Source of the DNA: Lachnospiraceae bacterium
GTDB taxonomy: Bacteria; Bacillota; Clostridia; Lachnospirales; Lachnospiraceae
DNA: 39,795 bases
Assembly: GCA_017546025.1 (NCBI GenBank)
Contig: JAFYYS010000024.1
Location: 1-39,795 of the forward strand
Direction of reading: 5' to 3'
In this document: positions 19,534 to 33,305 of the stretch, in pieces
Layout: each line of letters starts with the position of its first letter
Position numbering within the stretch: position 1 is the stretch's first letter
Position numbers and translations under genes: made by a program
Notes under the pieces: generated by a model
Database searches by the model: none
What the model was told of the DNA's origin: nothing
What the model saw: only the letters and a program-made list of their open reading frames with translations

Positions 19534-19652
19534 CTGAAATATAATTCTGGAAAAATTTAATTGTTTTTCGAATTTCTGGTTTTTATGTTCAATCCATAAG
19601 TTAGTCATGCAGTGGTATAATGGGCATGTATCCTCCTGAGAATGGAGAGAGT

Positions 19653-20909
19653 ATGACTGATGAAGGACGTAGGAAAGGACAACATCTAACCCGGGAAGAC
19701 CGTTATGAGATTCAGAAGGGACTGCGGGAACACAGAACTTTTCAGGAGATCTCCGAAATCATTGGATGCTCCCCGGATACCATTTCGAAAGAAATCCGAA
19801 AGCACCGCTATCACAAGGTCAGGGAAAAGAACCCATATCAGTATGTAAAGCCCAACCGCTGCAAACACAGGGATACCTGCCGGAGGCGGGACGTGTGCAA
19901 TAAGAAGAAAGGTCATAAATGCCGGATTCCCTGCCGGGAGTGCCTACGGTGTAACGAACTGTGTCCGGATTTCGTGGATGCCCCCTGCCCGATTGAGAAG
20001 AAGGCTCCGTATGTGTGCAACAACTGTCCGAAATCAATAAAGTGCCTGTTTGATAAGTATCTGTACAATGCGGATTGCGCGCACAGAGAGTATCTGGAAG
20101 CTCTGCACGAATCACGGCGGGGAGTGGATATGACGCGGGATGAACTGGCATCGCTGGACAGCCTGGTAAGTCCGCTGATCCAGAAGGGACAGCCGATCGC
20201 ACACATCATGGCCAACCACAAAGAGGACATTCCCTGCAGCGAACGGACACTGTACCGGTACATCGACATGGGAATCCTGACCGCAAGGAACCTGGACATG
20301 CACCGCACGGTGCGGTATCGGAAGCGTAGGCACTACACAAAACAACCGAAGGTATCCTATCGCAAGAAGGAAGGACACCATTATTCCGACTACCTGGAGT
20401 ATCTGGAGAAGAACCCGGGGATCCGGGTGGTCCAGATGGACACGGTGGAAGGTGTGAAGGGCGGGAAACTGCTGCAGACGCTTCTCTGGCCGGAAAACAA
20501 CCTGATGCTCGCATTTCTGATTGACGGCAAAGAAATGGCGAACACGGTAAGCACCTTCGATTGGCTGGAAGAACAACTCGGGACAGAGATGTTTCGCGAA
20601 TGGTTCCCCGTTGTGCTGACGGATAACGGGTGCGAATTTGCAGATCCGGAGCTGTTTGAAAAAGGGCCGGATGGAAATCCGAGGATGAAGCTGTTCTATT
20701 GCGAGCCGAGACATTCGGAGCAAAAGGGCGAGCTTGAGAAGAATCACGAATACATACGATATGTACTGCCGAAAGGAACGGCATTTGACGAGCTGACGCA
20801 GGAGCAGGTATTGTTGATGGTCAATCACATCAATAATACAACAAGGCCTATGCTTCATGGTGCGACTCCCATGAAGAAGGCCTTGCAGTCGTTCGGGACT
20901 AATAGGTAG
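19653..20909 (+). CDS. IS30 family transposase
   Basis: This DDE transposase (418 residues from the ATG preceded by GGAGAGA) has an N-terminal helix-turn-helix region, HLTREDRYEIQKGLREHRTFQEISEIIGCSPDTISKEI. A cysteine-rich stretch (about 65-140) follows, and then the DDE core with Asp in VVQMDTVEG, Asp in LTDNGCEF and Glu in ELEKNHEYIR. It appears full length. The 26 bp before the next gene leave little room for a right terminal inverted repeat, and no matching IS ends were found by eye. It may be an immobilised copy near the left island end. Confidence 0.88.
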   Translation: MTDEGRRKGQHLTREDRYEIQKGLREHRTFQEISEIIGCSPDTISKEIRKHRYHKVREKNPYQYVKPNRCKHRDTCRRRDVCNKKKGHKCRIPCRECLRCNELCPDFVDAPCPIEKKAPYVCNNCPKSIKCLFDKYLYNADCAHREYLEALHESRRGVDMTRDELASLDSLVSPLIQKGQPIAHIMANHKEDIPCSERTLYRYIDMGILTARNLDMHRTVRYRKRRHYTKQPKVSYRKKEGHHYSDYLEYLEKNPGIRVVQMDTVEGVKGGKLLQTLLWPENNLMLAFLIDGKEMANTVSTFDWLEEQLGTEMFREWFPVVLTDNGCEFADPELFEKGPDGNPRMKLFYCEPRHSEQKGELEKNHEYIRYVLPKGTAFDELTQEQVLLMVNHINNTTRPMLHGATPMKKALQSFGTNR

Positions 20910-20933
20910 AAGGGCAGATCGGAGGTGAGCCAA

Positions 20934-21494
20934 ATGGATGATAACGGTGCAAGTAGCTACCGCCGTTTTCTGAAAGGCGACTGGGACGGTATGACGGAAA
21001 TCGTCGAAACGTACTATGACGGGCTCATCCTCTTCCTGAAACGATACCTTGGAAATGAGACCGATGCGGAAGATATGGCGGAGGAAACGCTTCTTGTTTT
21101 AGTGAATAAGAAGCCCGCGTTTCATGAGAGGTCACTGTTCAAAACATGGCTTTATAATATTGCGAAAAATACTGCGATTAAGTACATGTACAAGAACAGC
21201 CGGACTATCCCTGTTTCTCCGGAGGATTTGACGGGAATTAGGATCGAGGATGAGGTTGTTCTTTCACAGTGCGTACGGAAGGAAGAAACTGAGGCTCTGA
21301 ATACGGCAATGGATCATTTACCGGAGGAATATCAGCTGGTTTTGCAGTTGAAGTATGTCGAGGAGATGCCGGTGAAGGAGATTGCCGAGGCAACAGGACG
21401 TACCGTTCACAGTATCAACAGTCTCTTAAAGAGAGCACGATCGGCTCTTAGGAATGAGCTTTTGAAGGAGGGCTTTCGTTATGAGAAGTCATGA
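20934..21494 (+). CDS. ECF-type RNA polymerase sigma factor
   Basis: This sigma-70 family, extracytoplasmic-function-type factor directs RNA polymerase to a small regulon. The ATG follows GGAGGTGAGCCAA and gives 186 residues, normal for ECF factors. Region 2 is seen in NETDAEDMAEETLLVLVNKKPAFHERSLFKTWLYNIAKNTAIKYM (about 42-90). Region 4 is seen in LPEEYQLVLQLKYVEEMPVKEIAEATGRTVHSINSLLKRARSALRNEL (about 126-178). Its last 14 nt overlap the start of a one-TM protein, the usual sigma/anti-sigma arrangement. It may control the bacteriocin-like genes of the same island, but that is inference. Confidence 0.9.
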   Translation: MDDNGASSYRRFLKGDWDGMTEIVETYYDGLILFLKRYLGNETDAEDMAEETLLVLVNKKPAFHERSLFKTWLYNIAKNTAIKYMYKNSRTIPVSPEDLTGIRIEDEVVLSQCVRKEETEALNTAMDHLPEEYQLVLQLKYVEEMPVKEIAEATGRTVHSINSLLKRARSALRNELLKEGFRYEKS

Positions 21495-23028
21495 AGAAGT
21501 GGTGGAACGCCTTAAGGCGAAGAATAAAGAATACATAGCAAACCGAAGGAAGAAAATCGCAGGAATTGCCGGTATCGTTTCGGTGGTGGTTCTCGTTGGC
21601 ATTCTAATTCCGATTTATCAGCAGTTTGGGAAGAATACAAACATGCAAAAGAAAGCGGAAACAGTTCCGACGGAAGGCGTCAGTGTTACCCCGACCGGAG
21701 ACGTCAAACCTGTTGAGAAAGATCCCCCGACCGTTACGGTTACTCCGACAGTATCCCTGGAAGGGAGAAGTAAGGCAAATGTGGAATTGACCGGCGAGCA
21801 GGTTGGATTTGTGAACCAGTCAATACCTCAATCAGGGACTGTTTATGCCAGCAGAACTCTTAATCAAATGATTCAGGAGAATTCCGGACGAGATGATATT
21901 CTGTATTCGGTTGTCTTGACAATTCAATTGGATTGGAAGGACCCAGAGGTAACTGCATTCGAAAATGATTTCAGGATAAATTATGAAAATAATCCTCTTT
22001 ACGAACAATACAAGACAGAATACGAAACCTGGCTCTATAGTGAATATATGCCATATCTCAGCGAAAGAGTGGACAATCAACAGGAGAAAAAAGAAGACTG
22101 GGAAGTTCTGATGGGAAAGGCACCGGAAGTTTTTCCCTCGGTTTGGCAGGAAAGACATCCGGAAGAATGGGAGGAACTTCAGGTTATTCTTGATCATGTG
22201 AATACATATGATAATGACATCAAGGAAATCAGGAACAGGCTTATTCAGGAAGAACTCTCGCTGATTCAGAAATCCGGAATGCTGACTTATTGCTATCCTG
22301 CGGAAGTTTATGCTTATGGGGCATCTCTTGGTGCACTGATTACAGCCGCGCAGTTTGAGAACCTTTTGATATCGGATCGGTTCAGCTACCATTTTAAATG
22401 GTCAGAATCAAAGGACTTGAGTGACCTGGAAAAAGATATTCCCGGTTTCACAAAAGCGGTACCGACAGAACCGGTAAGACCGGAGCATGTTATCGTGATA
22501 GACAGTACGGATCCCAGAATCGATAAAAGACTTCAGGGTGAACAGGACGCAGATGAAGTAGTGACAATTACGCTTCTGTTTGGAGACACATGGGGAGAGG
22601 GGCAGAGAATCCTCCGTGAGCAGTATCCGAAGGAATACGCAGCCTATATGGAGATGAAGGAATCTAGTGAATTATGGGATAATGATGATCCGCGTCTCGA
22701 GTTGGCACTTCGCGGACACGAACTCCACAATTCACTTCCCGGTGACTGGGAAGAGGAACAGGAAGCGAAGTTTTTTGAACGACATCCGGAATTTCTTTCA
22801 TACAGGGAAACGTACGGTGTGATGTGTTTGTATATGCGAGTGCCGTTTTCTCTCATCCCCGAAATTGCTAAGGATGATATGATTACAGAAATTAGAAGAG
22901 CACCGGAGGATAAACGTAAACCGGAGATTATCGGAGAATATCAAGGCATCATCGTGTATGATTTGCAAGGAATTGATGAGAATGCTGATTGGTTGGGAGA
23001 AGACGTAGGCGAAGCCGCAAATCAATGA
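21481..23028 (+). CDS. Membrane-anchored protein, probable anti-sigma factor with large outer domain
   Basis: This 515-residue protein begins inside the sigma gene with GGAGGGCTTTCGTTATG. It has a short charged cytoplasmic N-terminus (1-25), one membrane helix (about 26-47), a Thr/Pro-rich linker (about 57-92) and an outer domain of over 400 residues rich in charged and aromatic residues. I do not recognise the outer domain; no catalytic motif was seen. Position and topology fit a sensor that holds the ECF sigma factor at the membrane, though the cytoplasmic part is short for a classic anti-sigma domain. A terminator follows directly. Confidence 0.72.
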   Translation: MRSHEEVVERLKAKNKEYIANRRKKIAGIAGIVSVVVLVGILIPIYQQFGKNTNMQKKAETVPTEGVSVTPTGDVKPVEKDPPTVTVTPTVSLEGRSKANVELTGEQVGFVNQSIPQSGTVYASRTLNQMIQENSGRDDILYSVVLTIQLDWKDPEVTAFENDFRINYENNPLYEQYKTEYETWLYSEYMPYLSERVDNQQEKKEDWEVLMGKAPEVFPSVWQERHPEEWEELQVILDHVNTYDNDIKEIRNRLIQEELSLIQKSGMLTYCYPAEVYAYGASLGALITAAQFENLLISDRFSYHFKWSESKDLSDLEKDIPGFTKAVPTEPVRPEHVIVIDSTDPRIDKRLQGEQDADEVVTITLLFGDTWGEGQRILREQYPKEYAAYMEMKESSELWDNDDPRLELALRGHELHNSLPGDWEEEQEAKFFERHPEFLSYRETYGVMCLYMRVPFSLIPEIAKDDMITEIRRAPEDKRKPEIIGEYQGIIVYDLQGIDENADWLGEDVGEAANQ

Positions 23029-23040
23029 ATTTGAATTGTA

Positions 23041-23075
23041 ACAAAATGCAACGATTTATTGTCGTTGCATTTTGT
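23041..23075 (+). terminator. Hairpin terminator after the sigma/anti-sigma operon
   Basis: A perfect 14-bp stem (23041-23054 with 23062-23075), type ACAAAATGCAACGA, has a 7-nt loop. It starts 12 nt after the anti-sigma stop. The trailing sequence is only moderately T-rich because the stem itself ends in T residues. Confidence 0.7.
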
Positions 23076-23121
23076 GTTATTCATCCTGGTAAGATTGCCA
23101 AATGGGTGTTCTGAAGAAATA

Positions 23122-23150
23122 AAGCTGAGGTCTAATCCTCAGCTTTTTCT
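23122..23150 (+). terminator. Second intrinsic terminator downstream of the sigma/anti-sigma operon
   Basis: A perfect 9-bp stem AAGCTGAGG (23122-23130) pairs with 23137-23145 around loop TCTAAT and is followed by TTTCT. Together with the hairpin at 23041-23075 it insulates the sigma operon from the next genes. Confidence 0.75.
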
Positions 23151-23284
23151 ATGATCATATCCATGAGTGCGTGGGAAAGCAGTTCTTTGGGATCGGAGGA
23201 AGGGTTGATCCAAACCGACCGTTTCCACTCGATTTTCGAGTGACAAGGAGCTCCTCCGTGTGGTATAATCTCACAAATGGCTTG
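23132..23284 (-). pseudogene. Decayed gene end on the minus strand, unidentified
   Basis: On the minus strand a frame of about 50 codons without a start codon runs to a stop at 23132-23134. It includes CEIIPHGGAPCHSK and, further on, WINPSSDPKELLSHALMDMI. The residue mix looks like a real protein C-terminus rather than noise, and the frame is closed upstream by a stop at 23285-23287. I do not recognise the family. It overlaps, in antisense, the plus-strand promoter at 23240-23269, so the original gene is clearly no longer intact. Confidence 0.4.
23240..23269 (+). promoter_or_regulatory. Candidate promoter before the 27-codon ORF
   Basis: GTGACA (23240-23245), an 18-nt spacer and TATAAT (23264-23269) with TGG immediately before it (extended -10). 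A perfect 10-bp inverted repeat begins 13 nt downstream, where transcription would start. Confidence 0.5.
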
Positions 23285-23313
23285 TTACACAGAGTAAAAG
23301 ATTTGTGTAACAA
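23282..23313. repeat. Perfect 10-bp inverted repeat, candidate operator or leader hairpin
   Basis: TTGTTACACA (23282-23291) and TGTGTAACAA (23304-23313) are exact inverted copies separated by 12 nt. The repeat sits just downstream of the predicted -10 at 23264-23269, a common place for a repressor site. No T run follows, so it is not a terminator. Confidence 0.6.
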
Positions 23314-23337
23314 CGATAAGGGAGAAGTATCGTAGAT

Positions 23338-23421
23338 ATGTCTTTTATAATAGAACGAGCCGAAGATGAAAACGGAGCAATCGGTGACCTTGTAGGCGAA
23401 GAATTCACTAAATATACCTAG
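23338..23421 (+). CDS. Small ORF of 27 codons, unknown
   Basis: ATG to TAG encodes 27 mostly acidic residues beginning MSFIIERAEDENGAIGD. AGGGAGAAG lies about 12 nt upstream, a little far for an ideal ribosome site, and a promoter with a downstream inverted repeat precedes it. It could be a leader peptide, a small regulatory peptide or chance. No family was recognised. The ORF lies within the 504-bp gap between the anti-sigma gene and the bacteriocin-like gene, which otherwise holds the terminators, promoters and gene remnant listed separately. Confidence 0.3.
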   Translation: MSFIIERAEDENGAIGDLVGEEFTKYT

Positions 23422-23426
23422 AAAAA

Positions 23427-23499
23427 GGTATAGATGGAGAAAGAGCAACTATACCATATTGACAATGAATAATTAATCCGATATATTTGATATTGTCAA
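23427..23499 (+). promoter_or_regulatory. Promoter of the bacteriocin-like gene with two inverted repeats
   Basis: TTGACA (23459-23464), a 17-nt spacer and TATATT (23482-23487) form a near-consensus promoter. Its -35 lies in the left arm of a perfect inverted repeat, TTGACAAT (23459-23466) with ATTGTCAA (23492-23499), which spans from the -35 to the expected transcription start. A second repeat, GGTATAG (23427-23433) with CTATACC (23449-23455), sits directly upstream of the -35. The first fits a repressor site and the second an activator or second regulator site; both roles are inferred. Confidence 0.65.
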
Positions 23500-23532
23500 A
23501 TGACAGAATTCTATCATCAAAGGAGGCAGGAC

Positions 23533-23979
23533 ATGAATATCTATATCAAGAACGTATTCTATAGGAAGATGGTTCGGGTAATAGCGGTTTCTATTCTTCT
23601 TCTTTCTCTTTCAGTTGGCATGGCATACGCCGGAGAAATAGATACCTCTGCAGAAACTACCAGTAGTGGACAGTTTGATAATCATTCTTGCTCCACTTCG
23701 CCGGCGGCTGGAGTCACGCTTTATGGCTATGTTTCTGTTGATTCGTCTAAAGTCGGAGCATTAAGTCATACGTATGTTATGTGGAAGGCAAGACAATATG
23801 GTGAAAATTGCGGAGCATATCAAAATGCGAGTTATTCGTTTGGAACCGGCTCTTCCTATGATGATATTGTTTCGGAAACAGATATGAACCCGTTGAGTGC
23901 CCCATCGGTAACATATTCGGAGGATAAATCGTATTGGTTTACTTCTTCCAAAAAGGCAAATGTGAAAATAAACTACTGA
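23533..23979 (+). CDS. Secreted bacteriocin-like precursor with two cysteines in the mature part
   Basis: The start is the ATG after AAAGGAGGCAGGAC, not an in-frame ATG 33 nt upstream, which has no ribosome site. The 148 residues begin with a classic Sec signal: basic start (Lys6, Arg11, Lys12, Arg15), hydrophobic VIAVSILLLSLSVGM, and AYA cleavage before Gly34. The mature part of about 115 residues is Ser/Tyr/Gly-rich, with two cysteines (Cys53, Cys93) that could form a disulfide, and ends KANVKINY. The following permease and ATPase are of the lactococcin-972-associated type, so an exported antimicrobial protein is the best guess. Clear similarity to lactococcin 972 (short, Trp/His-rich) is not seen. 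A toxin, adhesin or signal protein remains possible. Confidence 0.6.
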   Translation: MNIYIKNVFYRKMVRVIAVSILLLSLSVGMAYAGEIDTSAETTSSGQFDNHSCSTSPAAGVTLYGYVSVDSSKVGALSHTYVMWKARQYGENCGAYQNASYSFGTGSSYDDIVSETDMNPLSAPSVTYSEDKSYWFTSSKKANVKINY

Positions 23980-23984
23980 TTATC

Positions 23985-24017
23985 AAAGTGGGGAGTTTTT
24001 TGGAATCCCCACTTTTT
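23985..24017 (+). terminator. Terminator/attenuator between precursor and permease genes
   Basis: A 10-bp stem AAAGTGGGGA (23985-23994) pairs with 24006-24015 around an 11-nt loop and runs into TTT. Partial read-through would give much more precursor mRNA than transporter mRNA, as in many bacteriocin operons. Confidence 0.75.
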
Positions 24018-24058
24018 CTTTGATGTCTTACTTTGAAACTGTGAGGTGCGAATTATTG

Positions 24059-26455
24059 ATGCATTTTGATGTGGTAATTTCAATTGCGCTCAAGAGGCTT
24101 TGGCAAAGAAAACGGATAGTTGTATTATGTGTCATTATGATGGCGGGGGCGTTTGGATTAACAGCTACAGTTGTTTCCTTGCGAAAACTAGCGAACAAAG
24201 CTAGAAGCACGATTTCTGATTCGCTATCTGGAGCCTTATCCTGTTATGGTGAGATAAATATAGAAATGCAGGGCCTTTCAAGTGATGAAAAGGGTGAAAT
24301 CTTTGAAAGCATTATTAATCTCCCTTCTATTAAAAGCATTGGAAGTATTTCAGAGCTTTTTGTGTTTAATCTGCGTGATGAGAATGGAAAATCCGATACT
24401 TGGAAATGTATACGTAAAGAACAGATTAATCATCCCTTAGTTTTCTCAGAGACCAAATTAGATTTACCTGAAGGTATTGCTTCTTCAGAAATAGTACAGA
24501 GTGTCGTCATTCCAGTGTCTTTATGGCCGGCATTTGATTTTGCATTATCTGAAGGCGAAGGATATGAGGCAATCGGAGGTGCGGAGAACCTTATATATTT
24601 GGGGTATAATTTCAGTAATTGTGCTTCGGTCGGAGATGTCTTGAGTGATGGGCAGAACCAGTATCGTGTTGCAGGAATACTGAAAAAAGGATCACATATT
24701 CCTAAGAGTTCATTTTTGTTCTGGAATAATTCTATGAGTTCACTAGGAGGGATGTCTTCTATTGTTTTGGATTCAACAACGCCCTTGGACAACCTCATTC
24801 TTTTTGTGACGCCTAGAATGTCTCTAAATCAGCTTCAGTTGATTTCATGGTCGGAGGACTGGAGTATAGAGGAAATTGAGAGGCAGATACAAAATATTAC
24901 GGGAATTTACAATCTTAAAACATATATATGTCCGCTAGATAAAAAGTTAGATGATGATTTACAAATAAATGAGGTACTTTCATCCGTTCTTCGCCCAGTC
25001 TCCTTAGTTATGGGTATATGTTCTGTAATTCTAATAATTTGCTCGCAATTGCTATCTATATTGAAAAAGAAGAATGATTTGGGGATACTCCTTACACAAG
25101 GCTTTTCGCGGGGACAGGTATATAGAATACTTCTTTTGGAAAACTTTGTTCAATTACTTCTTGCATCAATCTTTGCTCCGATAGTGGTTCGATGGATTAT
25201 GATTGAGTCGAATATGAGCGAGGCAGTACGAGAGGTCTTTTGGAAAAACATTTTGGGACCGGTAGGTGTTTCATTATCAATTCTGGTACTAGGCGCAACC
25301 GCGATTTCCTCTGCAATTGTTCTATTTATGATGCGATTAACCTCGTCTGCTGCGTGGGTAAAAGGTGAGTTAAAGAATTCTTCTTTGATTTATTCAGGGT
25401 TGTATATTGTATCTTTCACAGTTTGTTTAGGGCTGGTTTGGTATGGATTAACCTTGAAAACGCATTCGGAATGCGTCGAGCAAGTACGATTGTCTACAAA
25501 TTACCATTATTTAGAGTTGCAATTTGATCATGCTACAGCATCTCGAGATGATTTCATCCATTATGCGAGTCGGTTTTCTGGCAATGGACACTTGGCTTTT
25601 GTGTGTTCGCTGTCGGTGAATAAAGCAGCATATGGAAATACGGCTTTCGTTTTTTGGGGAAAGACAGACGAATTAGACTATCCGTTGCTTTTGGGAGAAT
25701 ATCCCGCAGTTCAGAGAAAAACAGAAGCCCCAGCTTGTGTTGTCGGAGAGGGACTTTTAAAGAGTTGTTATGTTGTAGGGGGAATCCGATATATCCGACT
25801 TGATGACAAAGAATATGAGGTTACTGGTATACTGGAAAGTAATCACTTTTCTGGCTTTGATTATAGAATATGGGTATTTGCGGATACGGTTCCAGAGGAA
25901 ATGCTTGACGAATATTATAATACACCGTCCCTACACGTCTTATATTATAAGAATGGCGAAATCACAGCCTCAGAAGCTGATGCATTTGTTTCTGAGGTCA
26001 AGAGTGTTCTTGGGGAGGATTTTAAGGCAATGAGAGTTCGAGCAGAATATGATGATGGAAGTTCTGAAAGTATTGCCTCGCTATATTCAGTTGTGTGCAA
26101 GGTTTTGCTACTAATATCAATGTTCAGTCTGGTTACTTTTTCATTTCTTTGGTCAACTCGACAACGATTGGCTCATATGATAATGAGGGTCAATGGTTAT
26201 TCACGTTTTCATATTATTTTACATGATGCATTCGTGATTCTGAAATACGAGTTTGCGGCGATTCTGATTGTTATGGGGGTGACATTTCTGATTGCCGTAT
26301 TTACTAGAGCGATTGAAAAATATGCGCAATCTATATATAGCGGAGCAGTTGATGGTTTGTTACTTTTTACACTCCTGGGAGTGGCATCTACTGTCGTAGT
26401 TTCTTCAAAAATGTTGCGTGATAATCCGGCAATTGTTCTAAAGCATACGGAGTGA
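24059..26455 (+). CDS. Bacteriocin-associated FtsX-like permease, lactococcin 972 type
   Basis: This large integral membrane protein is the likely partner of the next gene's ATPase, for export of or immunity to the bacteriocin-like product. The ATG preceded by GAGGTG gives 798 residues; an ATG 36 nt upstream is possible. Helices are seen near residues 20-42, then a long outer domain, helices around 305-425 (three) and 435-460, a second outer domain, and three at about 675-795. That is 8 helices in the pattern of TIGR01654-type bacteriocin-associated membrane proteins and FtsX/MacB permeases. The gene is markedly AT-richer than the housekeeping genes, indicating acquisition. Confidence 0.72.
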   Translation: MHFDVVISIALKRLWQRKRIVVLCVIMMAGAFGLTATVVSLRKLANKARSTISDSLSGALSCYGEINIEMQGLSSDEKGEIFESIINLPSIKSIGSISELFVFNLRDENGKSDTWKCIRKEQINHPLVFSETKLDLPEGIASSEIVQSVVIPVSLWPAFDFALSEGEGYEAIGGAENLIYLGYNFSNCASVGDVLSDGQNQYRVAGILKKGSHIPKSSFLFWNNSMSSLGGMSSIVLDSTTPLDNLILFVTPRMSLNQLQLISWSEDWSIEEIERQIQNITGIYNLKTYICPLDKKLDDDLQINEVLSSVLRPVSLVMGICSVILIICSQLLSILKKKNDLGILLTQGFSRGQVYRILLLENFVQLLLASIFAPIVVRWIMIESNMSEAVREVFWKNILGPVGVSLSILVLGATAISSAIVLFMMRLTSSAAWVKGELKNSSLIYSGLYIVSFTVCLGLVWYGLTLKTHSECVEQVRLSTNYHYLELQFDHATASRDDFIHYASRFSGNGHLAFVCSLSVNKAAYGNTAFVFWGKTDELDYPLLLGEYPAVQRKTEAPACVVGEGLLKSCYVVGGIRYIRLDDKEYEVTGILESNHFSGFDYRIWVFADTVPEEMLDEYYNTPSLHVLYYKNGEITASEADAFVSEVKSVLGEDFKAMRVRAEYDDGSSESIASLYSVVCKVLLLISMFSLVTFSFLWSTRQRLAHMIMRVNGYSRFHIILHDAFVILKYEFAAILIVMGVTFLIAVFTRAIEKYAQSIYSGAVDGLLLFTLLGVASTVVVSSKMLRDNPAIVLKHTE

Positions 26456-26516
26456 AATCTGATAAATCCATAATGATATTTTATATACTTAGAATTGTTT
26501 ATGAAAGGGATATAAA

Positions 26517-27182
26517 ATGATTGAATTGAAGAACATCAAGAAGAGCTTTGCATGTGGAACAGGAAAGGTAACTGTGTTAGATAATATTTCTTTAGAAATA
26601 CATTCGGGAGAGATGGTGGCAATAATGGGAGCATCTGGAAGCGGTAAGACCACATTACTTAATATTTTGGGATGTTTGGATTACGCTGACGAGGGAGATT
26701 ATTTGTATGAAGATCAAAACATTTCTGACATGAGGGTCGGCGCGCGAGAACGATTTAGAAAGGACACTATTGGTTTTGTGTTCCAACAGTTTGCATTAAT
26801 TGAGGATGAAACGGTTTTAGAAAATATAGAATTGCCGTTAAAAGCACGTTTTGTCCCCAAAAAGAAAAGAAGACAGATAACCATGAGTGTAGCAATGAAA
26901 CTTGGAATTGAAAACCATTTGAAAAAAAAGCCATCGCAGATCTCTGGAGGACAGCAACAGCGGTGTGCTATCGCCCGAGCACTGGTTACAGATAATCCGC
27001 TTATTCTTGCTGATGAACCGACTGGAGCTTTAGACAAAAAAACAGGCGAAATGATTATGAATGTTTTAAAAAACCTAAGCAGTGAGGGGAAAACTGTAGT
27101 TGTGGTTACACATGACGAGAGTGTGGCAGGTGTGGCTGATCGAATTATCAGAATTGAAGATGGCCGACTCTTGCCTGCTTAA
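26517..27182 (+). CDS. ABC transporter ATP-binding protein, lactococcin 972 export type
   Basis: This is the 221-residue ATPase of the MacB/LolD class that partners FtsX-like permeases. Walker A is GASGSGKTT (about 38-46), the Q-loop is VFQQFALIEDETVLENIELPL, the signature is ISGGQQQR, and Walker B is LILADEPTGALD. The segment around ILGCLDYADEGDYLYEDQNISD is like the group of ATPases found beside lactococcin 972-type bacteriocins. It lies 61 nt after the permease with GAAAGGG upstream of the ATG, and its stop is about 70 nt before the right island repeat, so it ends the cluster. Confidence 0.88.
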   Translation: MIELKNIKKSFACGTGKVTVLDNISLEIHSGEMVAIMGASGSGKTTLLNILGCLDYADEGDYLYEDQNISDMRVGARERFRKDTIGFVFQQFALIEDETVLENIELPLKARFVPKKKRRQITMSVAMKLGIENHLKKKPSQISGGQQQRCAIARALVTDNPLILADEPTGALDKKTGEMIMNVLKNLSSEGKTVVVVTHDESVAGVADRIIRIEDGRLLPA

Positions 27183-27253
27183 CTGTAAGAGTCGAGTGGA
27201 ATAATACAGAAATGGGAAAATGTGAAAAAGAGTATGGAGATAACACAACACTA

Positions 27254-27304
27254 CATGTGGAAACCATTGTGGAACTACAACGCATGAATACCTGACAATC
27301 CTTG
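27254..27304 (+). repeat. Right copy of the rumA 3'-end direct repeat (attR-like)
   Basis: It encodes HVETIVELQRMNT and a stop in the same sense as the end of rlmD but has no gene in front of it. Bases 27274-27304 equal 19315-19345 exactly. Silent changes in the flanking codons show that the two copies have diverged or come from different hosts. Similarity continues to about 27340. Confidence 0.88.
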
Positions 27305-27371
27305 CGGTTACGTACTTTGTGGGATTGTCTCCTTCAATAAGCAGTTATGAAAGAACAGGGAAAGACCGGTC

Positions 27372-27977
27372 ATGATTACCGTAAACATGAAAATCGAAGA
27401 TACGGCTGTATTACAACGGAGCAATCTTCCGGAAAATGCGACGAAGCTTGATACACCAAAAACCTTGGACGAGCTGATGAAGAAAGCCTTGCCTATCGCA
27501 GGTGCTTTATGTGCGGTCATGTTTGCCGCCATGTTTCTCAAGTCTTTTCTTTGCAGAACTATGGTGATTCATCCCATAGGAATTGTTCTTGGCTTTCTGA
27601 TTGGATTATTGCTGCTGCCGGTTCATGAGTGGCTGCATGCAATTGTTTATCCGAAAGAAGCTGCTGTTACGATTGGAAAAGTAAAAGGAAAGCTTCAGTT
27701 CGTTGCGCTGGCGTCCTATCCGATGATCCGGGCAAGGTTCATTCTGATGTGCCTTCTGCCGTTTGTGCTCGGGATTGTTCCGCTGGTTATCTTTCTTGTA
27801 TCGCCGGCGGAAGCGCGGTTCTTAAACGGAGTGATGTTCGGGATAGCGGGAATCGGAATGGTTTCGCCGTTTCCGGATGTTTACAACACGTTTGTTGTTC
27901 TGAAACAGTCGGGCAAGACAGACCGGATTATGTTTTACGAAGATGATATCTACCGTATCGGAGCAAGTGAAAATTAA
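27372..27977 (+). CDS. DUF3267 family membrane protein, putative zinc metallopeptidase
   Basis: This 201-residue membrane protein has about four helices (around 42-60, 66-84, 112-140 and 150-172). It carries HEWLH (His85, Glu86, His89), the HExxH signature of zincin-type peptidases in the DUF3267 family, at the end of a membrane helix. GGGAAAG lies about 8 nt before the ATG. It begins 67 nt after the right rumA repeat, so it is the first gene outside the island. The substrate is unknown; the HExxH placement resembles intramembrane or membrane-associated proteases. Confidence 0.8.
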   Translation: MITVNMKIEDTAVLQRSNLPENATKLDTPKTLDELMKKALPIAGALCAVMFAAMFLKSFLCRTMVIHPIGIVLGFLIGLLLLPVHEWLHAIVYPKEAAVTIGKVKGKLQFVALASYPMIRARFILMCLLPFVLGIVPLVIFLVSPAEARFLNGVMFGIAGIGMVSPFPDVYNTFVVLKQSGKTDRIMFYEDDIYRIGASEN

Positions 27978-27996
27978 AGCAAACCGGGAGGCATGT

Positions 27997-28353
27997 ATGC
28001 CGTTAGTCAGAATTGAAATCATCAAAGGGAAGAGTGCATCATACAAGAAGGAACTGTTAGAGTGCGTTCATGCAGGGCTTGTGGAAGCACTTTCGATTGC
28101 AGACTGGGACCGGTTTCAGCGGATTGTTGAGATTGACCGGGAATGTTTAGAAACATCTCCTGACAAATCTGACAGTTTCACCATCATCGAGCTGACACTG
28201 TTCCCGGGGAGAACCAAAGAACAGAAGAGGGCGGTTATTGAATGCATCACCGACCGGCTTCATAAAAATCTGGATATTCCCAAAGAAGATGTCTTCATCA
28301 TAATCCATGAGCCGCCATTGGAAAACTGGGGGCTCGGCGGGAAACAGAAATAG
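27997..28353 (+). CDS. Tautomerase superfamily protein
   Basis: The ATG after GGGAGG is followed by a proline, so removal of Met exposes the catalytic Pro1 of the 4-oxalocrotonate tautomerase superfamily. The 118 residues start MPLVRIEIIKGKS and contain FTIIELTLFPGRTKEQKRAVIECITDRLHKNLDIPKEDVFIIIHEPPLENWG, in the pattern of the double-length Tautomerase_2 group. It follows the DUF3267 gene after 19 nt and is closed by a terminator. Physiological substrates are usually unknown in this group. Confidence 0.87.
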   Translation: MPLVRIEIIKGKSASYKKELLECVHAGLVEALSIADWDRFQRIVEIDRECLETSPDKSDSFTIIELTLFPGRTKEQKRAVIECITDRLHKNLDIPKEDVFIIIHEPPLENWGLGGKQK

Positions 28354-32672: not shown

Positions 32673-33305
32673 ATGACATTCGGAGAAAAACTAAAGGAAG
32701 CAAGAAAGAACATCGGTCTTTCGCAGGAAGAGCTTTCGGAACTCATCGGGGTATCCAGAGCTGCAGTTGCAAAATGGGAGTCAGACAAAGGACTGCCGGA
32801 TATTGAGAACCTGAAGACAGTGGCAAAGCTTCTTGATGTGAGCACGGACTATCTTCTGGACGACGGCGCAACGTTAGACCTGTCGGTGACGAAGAAAGCA
32901 ATTGATCTGGAGAAGTACGCCGAGGGCAAGAAACTCTCCAGAATTAAAAAGGTGAAGATTAAGGAACGCATCGTCAGAGAAACGTATCCGGAGGACGAAA
33001 TCGTGCGGCTGACGCTGACCGGCATCCGGGATACAAAACGGGAGAAGATTGTCGATGAGGCAATCGGCTGGTTCGTGTTAATCCTCGGTGATATTCCGTT
33101 GTTCGGGACGCAGGAGATGGGCAAGCTGGTGAACAGTCTGGATCATCAGTATTACCTCGTAAACAAAGAAAAAGACCAGTACTTTGTACTTCTGACCGAT
33201 GAGCATATCATTGCCCGTAAGCTCCCTTCTAAGATTACGGGTAAGAAATTCGAAATCGGTGACATGAAGTTCCGAACCATGGGAATTGTGAAAGAAACAG
33301 TATAG
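32673..33305 (+). CDS. XRE family transcriptional regulator with C-terminal domain
   Basis: The 210 residues have an N-terminal Cro/C1-type helix-turn-helix (about 4-60: KLKEARKNIGLSQEELSELIGVSRAAVAKWESDKGLPDIENLKTVAKLLDVSTDYLL). The C-terminal half is not recognised and may sense a signal or shield the DNA-binding part. GGAGGAAATCAAT precedes the ATG. The gene that follows, 22 nt later, starts with TTG and is probably co-transcribed and functionally linked. Confidence 0.87.
   Translation: MTFGEKLKEARKNIGLSQEELSELIGVSRAAVAKWESDKGLPDIENLKTVAKLLDVSTDYLLDDGATLDLSVTKKAIDLEKYAEGKKLSRIKKVKIKERIVRETYPEDEIVRLTLTGIRDTKREKIVDEAIGWFVLILGDIPLFGTQEMGKLVNSLDHQYYLVNKEKDQYFVLLTDEHIIARKLPSKITGKKFEIGDMKFRTMGIVKETV

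Follow-up and report, generated by a model that had tools for sequence, protein, structure and literature searches.

Loci of the lactococcin 972 type, represented by lactococcin 972, streptococcin B and mediterrocin, encode a small Sec-secreted protein and, behind it, a large permease of the FtsX-like kind and a small ATPase close to TIGR03608. In two reports, secretion at lactococcin 972-like loci is treated as Sec-dependent, and the permease and ATPase genes are given as predicted immunity and transport genes, their function being unverified there (PMC11796350, PMC12345188); streptococcin B is reported there to leave the cell with neither ComAB nor BlpAB as its transporter (PMC11796350), and mediterrocin to be a member of the family with 18% identity to lactococcin 972 (PMC12345188). 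Here we describe a three-gene cassette on contig JAFYYS010000024.1 of a gut Lachnospiraceae bacterium (assembly GCA_017546025.1), the window being the whole stretch of 39,795 nucleotides that was analysed. The cassette encodes a small secreted protein (the cargo), an FtsX/MacB-type permease and an ATP-binding cassette (ABC) ATPase, and we read it, with a probability of about 0.5, as a bacteriocin-like, rapidly replaced secreted protein accompanied by an ABC immunity pump. This reading builds on the anatomy of the genes, an architecture that recurs in other genomes, the diversity of the cargos, the allelic divergence of cargo and permease, and a second cassette in the same genome, all of which are observed; the antimicrobial action of the cargo and the immunity role of the transporter are presumed.

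Anatomy of the cassette and comparison with described transporters

The initial annotation had described a 148-residue precursor with a Sec signal, a mature part of 115 residues and two cysteines, followed by an FtsX-like permease with eight transmembrane (TM) segments and a MacB-like ATPase, the cluster being AT-richer than its surroundings, and all of these points were borne out. Reading of the open reading frame (ORF), the Shine-Dalgarno (SD) sequence and the signal supported the predicted precursor (Table 1), with the cysteines at C53 and C93; no gene starts at 23427, which had been given as the beginning of the system. The eight TM segments were counted by hydropathy, and in Pfam the permease passed the cut-off of MacB_PCD (32.0 bits; cut-off 27) and fell just below that of FtsX (25.2 bits; cut-off 25.5). 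The start of the permease at ATG 24059, which has GAGGTG in front of it and lies downstream of a hairpin and T-run that follow the cargo stop codon, was considered better than TTG 24020, where the frame opens. The G+C content of the cluster is 38-40%, compared with 43-61% in the rest of the window. As judged by alignment with relatives, the window permease is a half-permease B (N-terminal) fused to a half-permease A (C-terminal). Many relatives have two separate half-permeases (A, ~370 aa; B, ~420 aa), and fused permeases were also found at four other loci (L033, L079, L094 and L125), with the order B-A in all.

For the ATPase, TIGR03608 was the best NCBIfam match (241.8 bits, below the cut-off of 254.85), and among solved structures MacB was the nearest (205.6 bits, with 5lj9 best), with BceA (161.5 bits) and PsdA also among the solved relatives. 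The resemblance to MacB-type (type VII) transporters consists of this ATPase match and of the MacB_PCD match of the permease; however, the window has a separate ATPase gene and both permease halves in one chain, and no MacA-like adaptor was found among the eight window proteins scanned (19620-28350). BceAB and PsdAB are peptide-resistance transporters, and the resemblance to these systems lies in the pairing of a permease with an ATPase and in a presumed self-protection from an extracellular peptide, but the window ATPase scores lower with BceA than with MacB, and the Bce domain layout is different.

With respect to lactococcin 972, it had been stated initially that the precursor lacks the pattern of this family, that its larger size sets it apart, and that the transporter is of the TIGR01654 type. 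The precursor matched neither TIGR01653 nor PF09683; in addition, it matched no family at E ≤ 1 in Pfam and NCBIfam and none in PADLOC. A control search for PF09683 covered 200 genomes from the bacterial family of the window and returned matches in two, neither of them the window's genome. The precursor, permease and ATPase of one of these control loci (L168) pass TIGR01653, TIGR01654 and TIGR03608, the precursor passing PF09683 too; the permease reaches 192.7 bits with TIGR01654 (cut-off 189.35) and 34 bits with DUF1430 (cut-off 28.2), and the ATPase 260.5 bits with TIGR03608. At the other PF09683 locus (L167), the ORFs were read only, and no ATPase was detected in its stretch. In contrast to the control permease, the window permease had no match in NCBIfam, TIGR01654 included, and none to DUF1430, so the assignment of the transporter to the TIGR01654 type was not supported. 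Neither was the argument from size, since PMC4289311 lists precursors annotated as lactococcin 972-like with 126, 135 and 148 aa and the control precursor has 142 aa. A comparison of profiles of window-type (4 rows) and lactococcin 972-type (2 rows) precursors, both of them shallow, detected no relationship (probability 0.6%). Whereas the window cassette shares with the lactococcin 972-type loci the combination of genes given above, its precursor, permease and ATPase all miss the curated cut-offs, its permease consists of two fused FtsX halves that are split in many relatives, and its cargo is highly variable. The cassette is outside the curated lactococcin 972 models, yet of the same general kind.

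Recurrence of the cassette and divergence of its cargo

Homologues of the cargo were found beside similar permeases. Genome G099 has two loci at which a cargo homologue precedes B and A permease halves, and the ATPases were not seen there because both stretches stop at contig ends. A profile built from the window and G099 cargos and run over 397 genomes added one new genome, G855 (E 2.2e-9), whose neighbourhood, read afterwards, shows the order cargo-B-A-ATPase. When the profile was built without the window protein, it recovered the window cargo at E 5.6e-7, compared with 0.008 for the best of 2000 shuffled cargos. The homologues therefore do not occur mainly without transporter genes, as the cargos of G099 (two loci) and G855 precede window-like permease halves, and the suggestion that the cargo represents a new class, combined with a transporter broadly of the MacB/lactococcin-972-ATPase kind, is supported. 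W84, A86, SFG at 102-104 and A142 are among the positions common to the cargo homologues. Cysteine positions are not shared among them, so the two cysteines are not characteristic of the class, and a disulfide was rejected as a class feature for the same reason. One of the two G099 copies (L028:7064-7444) has an in-frame stop codon, and the other (L029) is open.

The distribution of the cargo is patchy: it occurs in 3 of the 397 family genomes, including the window's, and in 1 of 101 genomes of the genus of G855 (G855 itself). No homologue was found at E ≤ 0.01 in 21 congeners, six rows with E values of 0.02-0.08 not being counted. The sole weak match besides the cargo itself in 195 relatives (G064, E 0.007) was rejected, as reading of its 3.1-kb locus revealed no ABC permease or ATPase. 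No close homologues of the precursor were found in viral contigs, plasmids, phages or genome contigs, the contig scans relying on exact short-peptide matches and reaching close relatives only; the cargo profile found none in viral contigs and nothing better than E 0.2 among solved structures. As for the transporter, no permease other than the window's own was found at E ≤ 1e-12 in class genomes (1 of 391), neither the window permease nor the G855 cargo was found in plasmids, and the 77 pattern matches obtained for ATPase relatives in viral contigs included no true relative.

Related transporter loci were collected by scanning genome contigs with an ATPase segment, and the best 80 of at least 294 confirmed stretches, near-copies included, were used. 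A script detected an ATPase and an upstream permease at 65 of the 80 loci, 62 of which were clear of the contig edge and hence evaluable; 8 were dropped for lack of an ATPase ORF and 7 for lack of a permease, and the walking rule is known to have missed three of these 7 (L109, L121 and L126) because permease halves were later found there. With signal peptides called by a hydropathy rule and not by SignalP, a small signal-peptide ORF was present directly before the permease at 31 of the 62 loci, compared with 13 of 241 control genes (Fisher p 2e-15). After dropping three doubtful ORFs, namely a permease fragment at L107, a truncated ORF of 75 aa at L098 and a lipoprotein behind the probable cargo at L115, the count was 28 of 62 (Fisher p 4e-13). 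The remaining genes of these loci, where 250 aa or longer, served as control genes, and ORFs were admitted from 55 aa upwards in the test and from 80 aa upwards in the control. BLASTP of 56 entries yielded 9 groups and 21 singletons; these entries include 2 wrong-frame ORFs, the L107 fragment, 13 downstream proteins (12 of which belong to a single lipoprotein family) and ten manual additions from further loci, and the biggest group (12) is the downstream lipoprotein family and not cargo. Scans of 21 related-locus cargos and another three small secreted proteins against Pfam, NCBIfam or both gave no match over a cut-off. The ATPase signature FVFQxFALM was found in 16 of 299 family genomes at 21 sites, with two sites each in 5 genomes, a count from which the window ATPase (FALI) is excluded.

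Within this survey, the loci L130, L136, L137 and L141 (~4.2-8.9 kb; recorded as Dielma, Pseudoflavonifractor, Anaerotignum and Drancourtella) carry clusters of an extracytoplasmic function (ECF) sigma gene, an anti-sigma-like gene, a shortened permease, a permease, an ATPase and a lipoprotein, in this order. The ATPases of L136, L137 and L141 are 99-100% identical to one another and 90% identical to that of L130, which may reflect recent transfer or an isolate mix-up within one project. The cargos of L099, L103, L134 and L078 form a subfamily with an RHSIDN motif, which may have another role; the downstream lipoprotein is present at L099, L103 and L134.

Divergence of cargo and permease at an allelic locus was seen between two Lachnospiraceae assemblies (L079 and L082), in which 4.3 kb of flank are 89% identical and the leader is 93-95% identical, this similarity ending within the codons of the signal peptide. 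The ATPases of these two loci have 219 of 220 residues in common, the permeases are 39% identical, and the cargos are 23% identical, compared with an average of 20% for shuffled cargos. When L081 and L083 are included, comparisons among the four loci show 1-6 differing residues in the ATPase and 39-53% identity in the permease, permease divergence being greatest in the N-terminal half and smallest at the C-terminal end. L083 also has a tandem unit of a second cargo and its B and A halves, which runs into the contig end; this second cargo is 80% identical to that of L082 in the signal peptide and 37% in the mature part. The genome of the window itself carries a second cassette (G000:C13:40866-44873; L217:4367-8374), in which an ATPase with FVFQNFALI is preceded by a 166-aa signal-peptide protein, a 173-aa protein with one TM segment, and split A and B permeases; its cargo has no significant similarity to the window cargo (E 2). 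Across 33 loci with a cargo, cargo identity and ATPase identity go together (the observed value was reached by 0 of 2000 permutations).

Upstream signals and genomic setting

Table 1. Features of the cassette and of the region upstream of it (window coordinates)
Feature	Coordinates	Strand	Remarks
Cargo gene	23533..23979	+	ATG 23533, strong SD AGGAGG; 148-aa secreted protein; no Pfam/NCBIfam/PADLOC match
Cargo signal peptide	23533-23631 (residues 1-33)	+	AYA|GE, cleavage A33|G34 by eye; mature part 115 aa
Permease gene	24059..26455	+	FtsX/MacB-type, 798 aa, 8 TM; alternative start TTG 24020
ABC ATPase gene	26517..27182	+	221 aa, motif FVFQQFALI; TIGR03608 below cut-off; best solved match MacB 5lj9
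ECF sigma factor	20925..21494	+	Passes the Sigma70_r2 and r4_2 cut-offs; probably regulates this locus or a neighbour
Putative anti-sigma	21481..23028	+	515 aa; single TM close to the N-terminus; extracellular part large; overlaps the sigma gene
Terminator-like hairpin	23041..23075	+	15-bp stem, fold z-score -5.4; ends the sigma/anti-sigma unit
Sigma-A-like promoter TTGACA-17-TATATT	23459..23487	+	Before the cargo; only suggestive
Hairpin and T-run, possible attenuator	23987..24021	+	Between cargo and permease; 8-bp stem, z-score -2.5

The ECF sigma pair reported initially was confirmed as to the sigma factor; its partner had no family match over cut-off in Pfam or NCBIfam, and its position and single TM segment suggest an anti-sigma role. 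Since a terminator-like hairpin ends the sigma/anti-sigma unit, the cargo is probably under its own promoter; the cassette may be under the control of the sigma factor. Terminator-like sites in the region numbered 6, compared with 5.0 expected, and sigma-A-like sites 17, compared with 16.8 expected from shuffles. The hairpin between cargo and permease was not picked up by the stricter hairpin scan. A terminator in this position did not stand out clearly as a feature of the class, being present at 8 of 34 loci and in 33 of 256 controls (p 0.11), although only 5 in 1700 shuffled versions of these stretches had one.

ECF sigma genes and genes for DUF4367-bearing proteins with one TM segment were also found downstream of the loci L093 (where the sigma gene is a short fragment, seen only by reading) and L094. 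These loci are near the window in a quick version of the ATPase tree, in a group of 6 rows (SH-aLRT 99) that is unsure because two long-branch rows lie inside it. At the G855 locus, no ECF sigma gene was seen by reading in 9.1 kb, and ECF control was rejected as a feature of the class, ECF genes being present at 8 of the 80 loci (phmmer), 7 of them of one type. Downstream of the ECF sigma pair of L094, two more small signal-peptide-like proteins without a Pfam family are encoded (L094:11325-12396).

The proposal that the cassette lies in an rlmD-targeted island stood in part. A transposase gene with an HTH_38 match (19620-20909), which we take to be IS30-like, lies directly after rlmD, and none of 14 window genes, from this transposase to the helix-turn-helix (HTH) gene at 33305, was found in 13 congener rlmD stretches, several of which are short past rlmD; no integrase or attachment site was shown. 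In several congeners rlmD is near a contig end, and by reading some congeners have rlmD neighbours in common (G014/G020, G004/G006). In G018, a homologue of window gene 34470 directly follows rlmD, and therefore up to ~15 kb may be inserted in the window.

Proposed role of the cassette

In the mechanism that we favour, the precursor would be exported by Sec and cut after residue 33, and the 115-aa mature protein would act extracellularly on competing relatives. The fused B-A permease and the ATPase would form a complete MacB-like ABC pump, which would guard the producer by pulling away either the cargo or an envelope component that the cargo occupies, and relatives would swap cargo and permease fast while the ATPase is retained. 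Somewhat more tentatively, we suggest that these loci may make up a distinct, unnamed class of interbacterial antagonism cassettes in Lachnospiraceae and other Clostridia, each pairing a hypervariable protein of ~120-170 aa, secreted by Sec and falling into about two dozen sequence types unlinked by BLASTP, with an FtsX permease, either split or fused, and an ATPase that is better conserved. Such cassettes would be exchanged in the form of alleles and tandem copies and would correspond, in Gram-positive bacteria, to polymorphic toxin/immunity loci known elsewhere. None of the open-access titles and abstracts searched describes this class, subscription papers and preprints being outside this coverage.

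Several results weigh against an immunity pump with a rapidly replaced cargo. No upstream cargo was detected at 31 of the 62 evaluable loci, and over the 33 loci the relation of cargo to permease beyond that to the ATPase was not significant (113 of 2000 permutations as high). At L099, L103, L134 and G341 the cargo (39-70% identity) is better conserved than the permease (26-51%) in 5 of 6 pairs. Structure models of the cargo (single-sequence and 4-row) had mean predicted local distance difference test (pLDDT) scores of 44 and 35, with the mature part below 50 in both, too low to be of use, and hence showed no fold like that of lactococcin 972 (PDB 2LGN). Given the non-significant co-evolution, the subfamily with conserved cargo and the loci lacking one, specific recognition between cargo and permease is therefore something that we infer, most strongly at the allelic loci.

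Alternatively, the cargo might have no toxic action and serve as an extracellular partner or ligand of an ABC transporter for signalling or envelope stress that is controlled by an ECF sigma factor. We regard this as doubtful: ECF sigma genes adjoin the cassette in the window and at L093 and L094, loci of the L130, L136, L137 and L141 type, where no cargo was detected, combine an ECF gene with a lipoprotein from a single family encoded downstream, and one subfamily has a better conserved cargo, but a housekeeping partner would hardly be expected to diverge almost at random between alleles whose ATPases are all but identical, or to occur in dissimilar forms in tandem or multiple cassettes of a single genome. 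Neither does the conclusion of the initial annotation that the permease and ATPase export the cargo appear likely. Export agrees with the gene order and with what NCBI calls TIGR03608 ('putative bacteriocin export ABC transporter'); however, the Sec signal of the cargo is an ordinary one, no double-glycine leader was seen by reading, and no peptidase domain is among the Pfam matches listed for the permease and ATPase. Moreover, secretion at lactococcin 972-like loci is treated as Sec-dependent in PMC11796350 and PMC12345188, and streptococcin B, from a comparable family, leaves the cell without ComAB/BlpAB (PMC11796350). The exporter claim was thus not borne out, and we consider this role of the transporter less likely than immunity.

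That the cassette belongs to the lactococcin 972 family but has diverged strongly is also improbable. The order of functions (Sec protein, permease, ATPase) and the best NCBIfam match of the ATPase would fit such an origin, and mediterrocin is itself only 18% identical to lactococcin 972 (PMC12345188), but TIGR01653, PF09683, TIGR01654 and DUF1430 were all without a match, the control locus from the same bacterial family passes every one of them, and the comparison of the two shallow profiles speaks against it as well. The reading as chance neighbours, in which an unrelated secreted protein happens to lie beside a transporter, would agree with the small number of cargo relatives and their absence from the 21 congeners at the threshold used; it is strongly disfavoured by the excess of signal-peptide ORFs directly upstream of the permease and by the transporter beside the G855 cargo.

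Overall, if the cargos are antagonistic, they would be a source of strain-to-strain competition in gut Clostridia and of protein antibiotics with a narrow spectrum, a source that evolves fast and is unnamed by the Pfam, NCBIfam and PADLOC models used. The shared transporter is a simple handle for collecting cargos, and with allelic loci that have nearly identical ATPases, what the pump recognises becomes directly testable.

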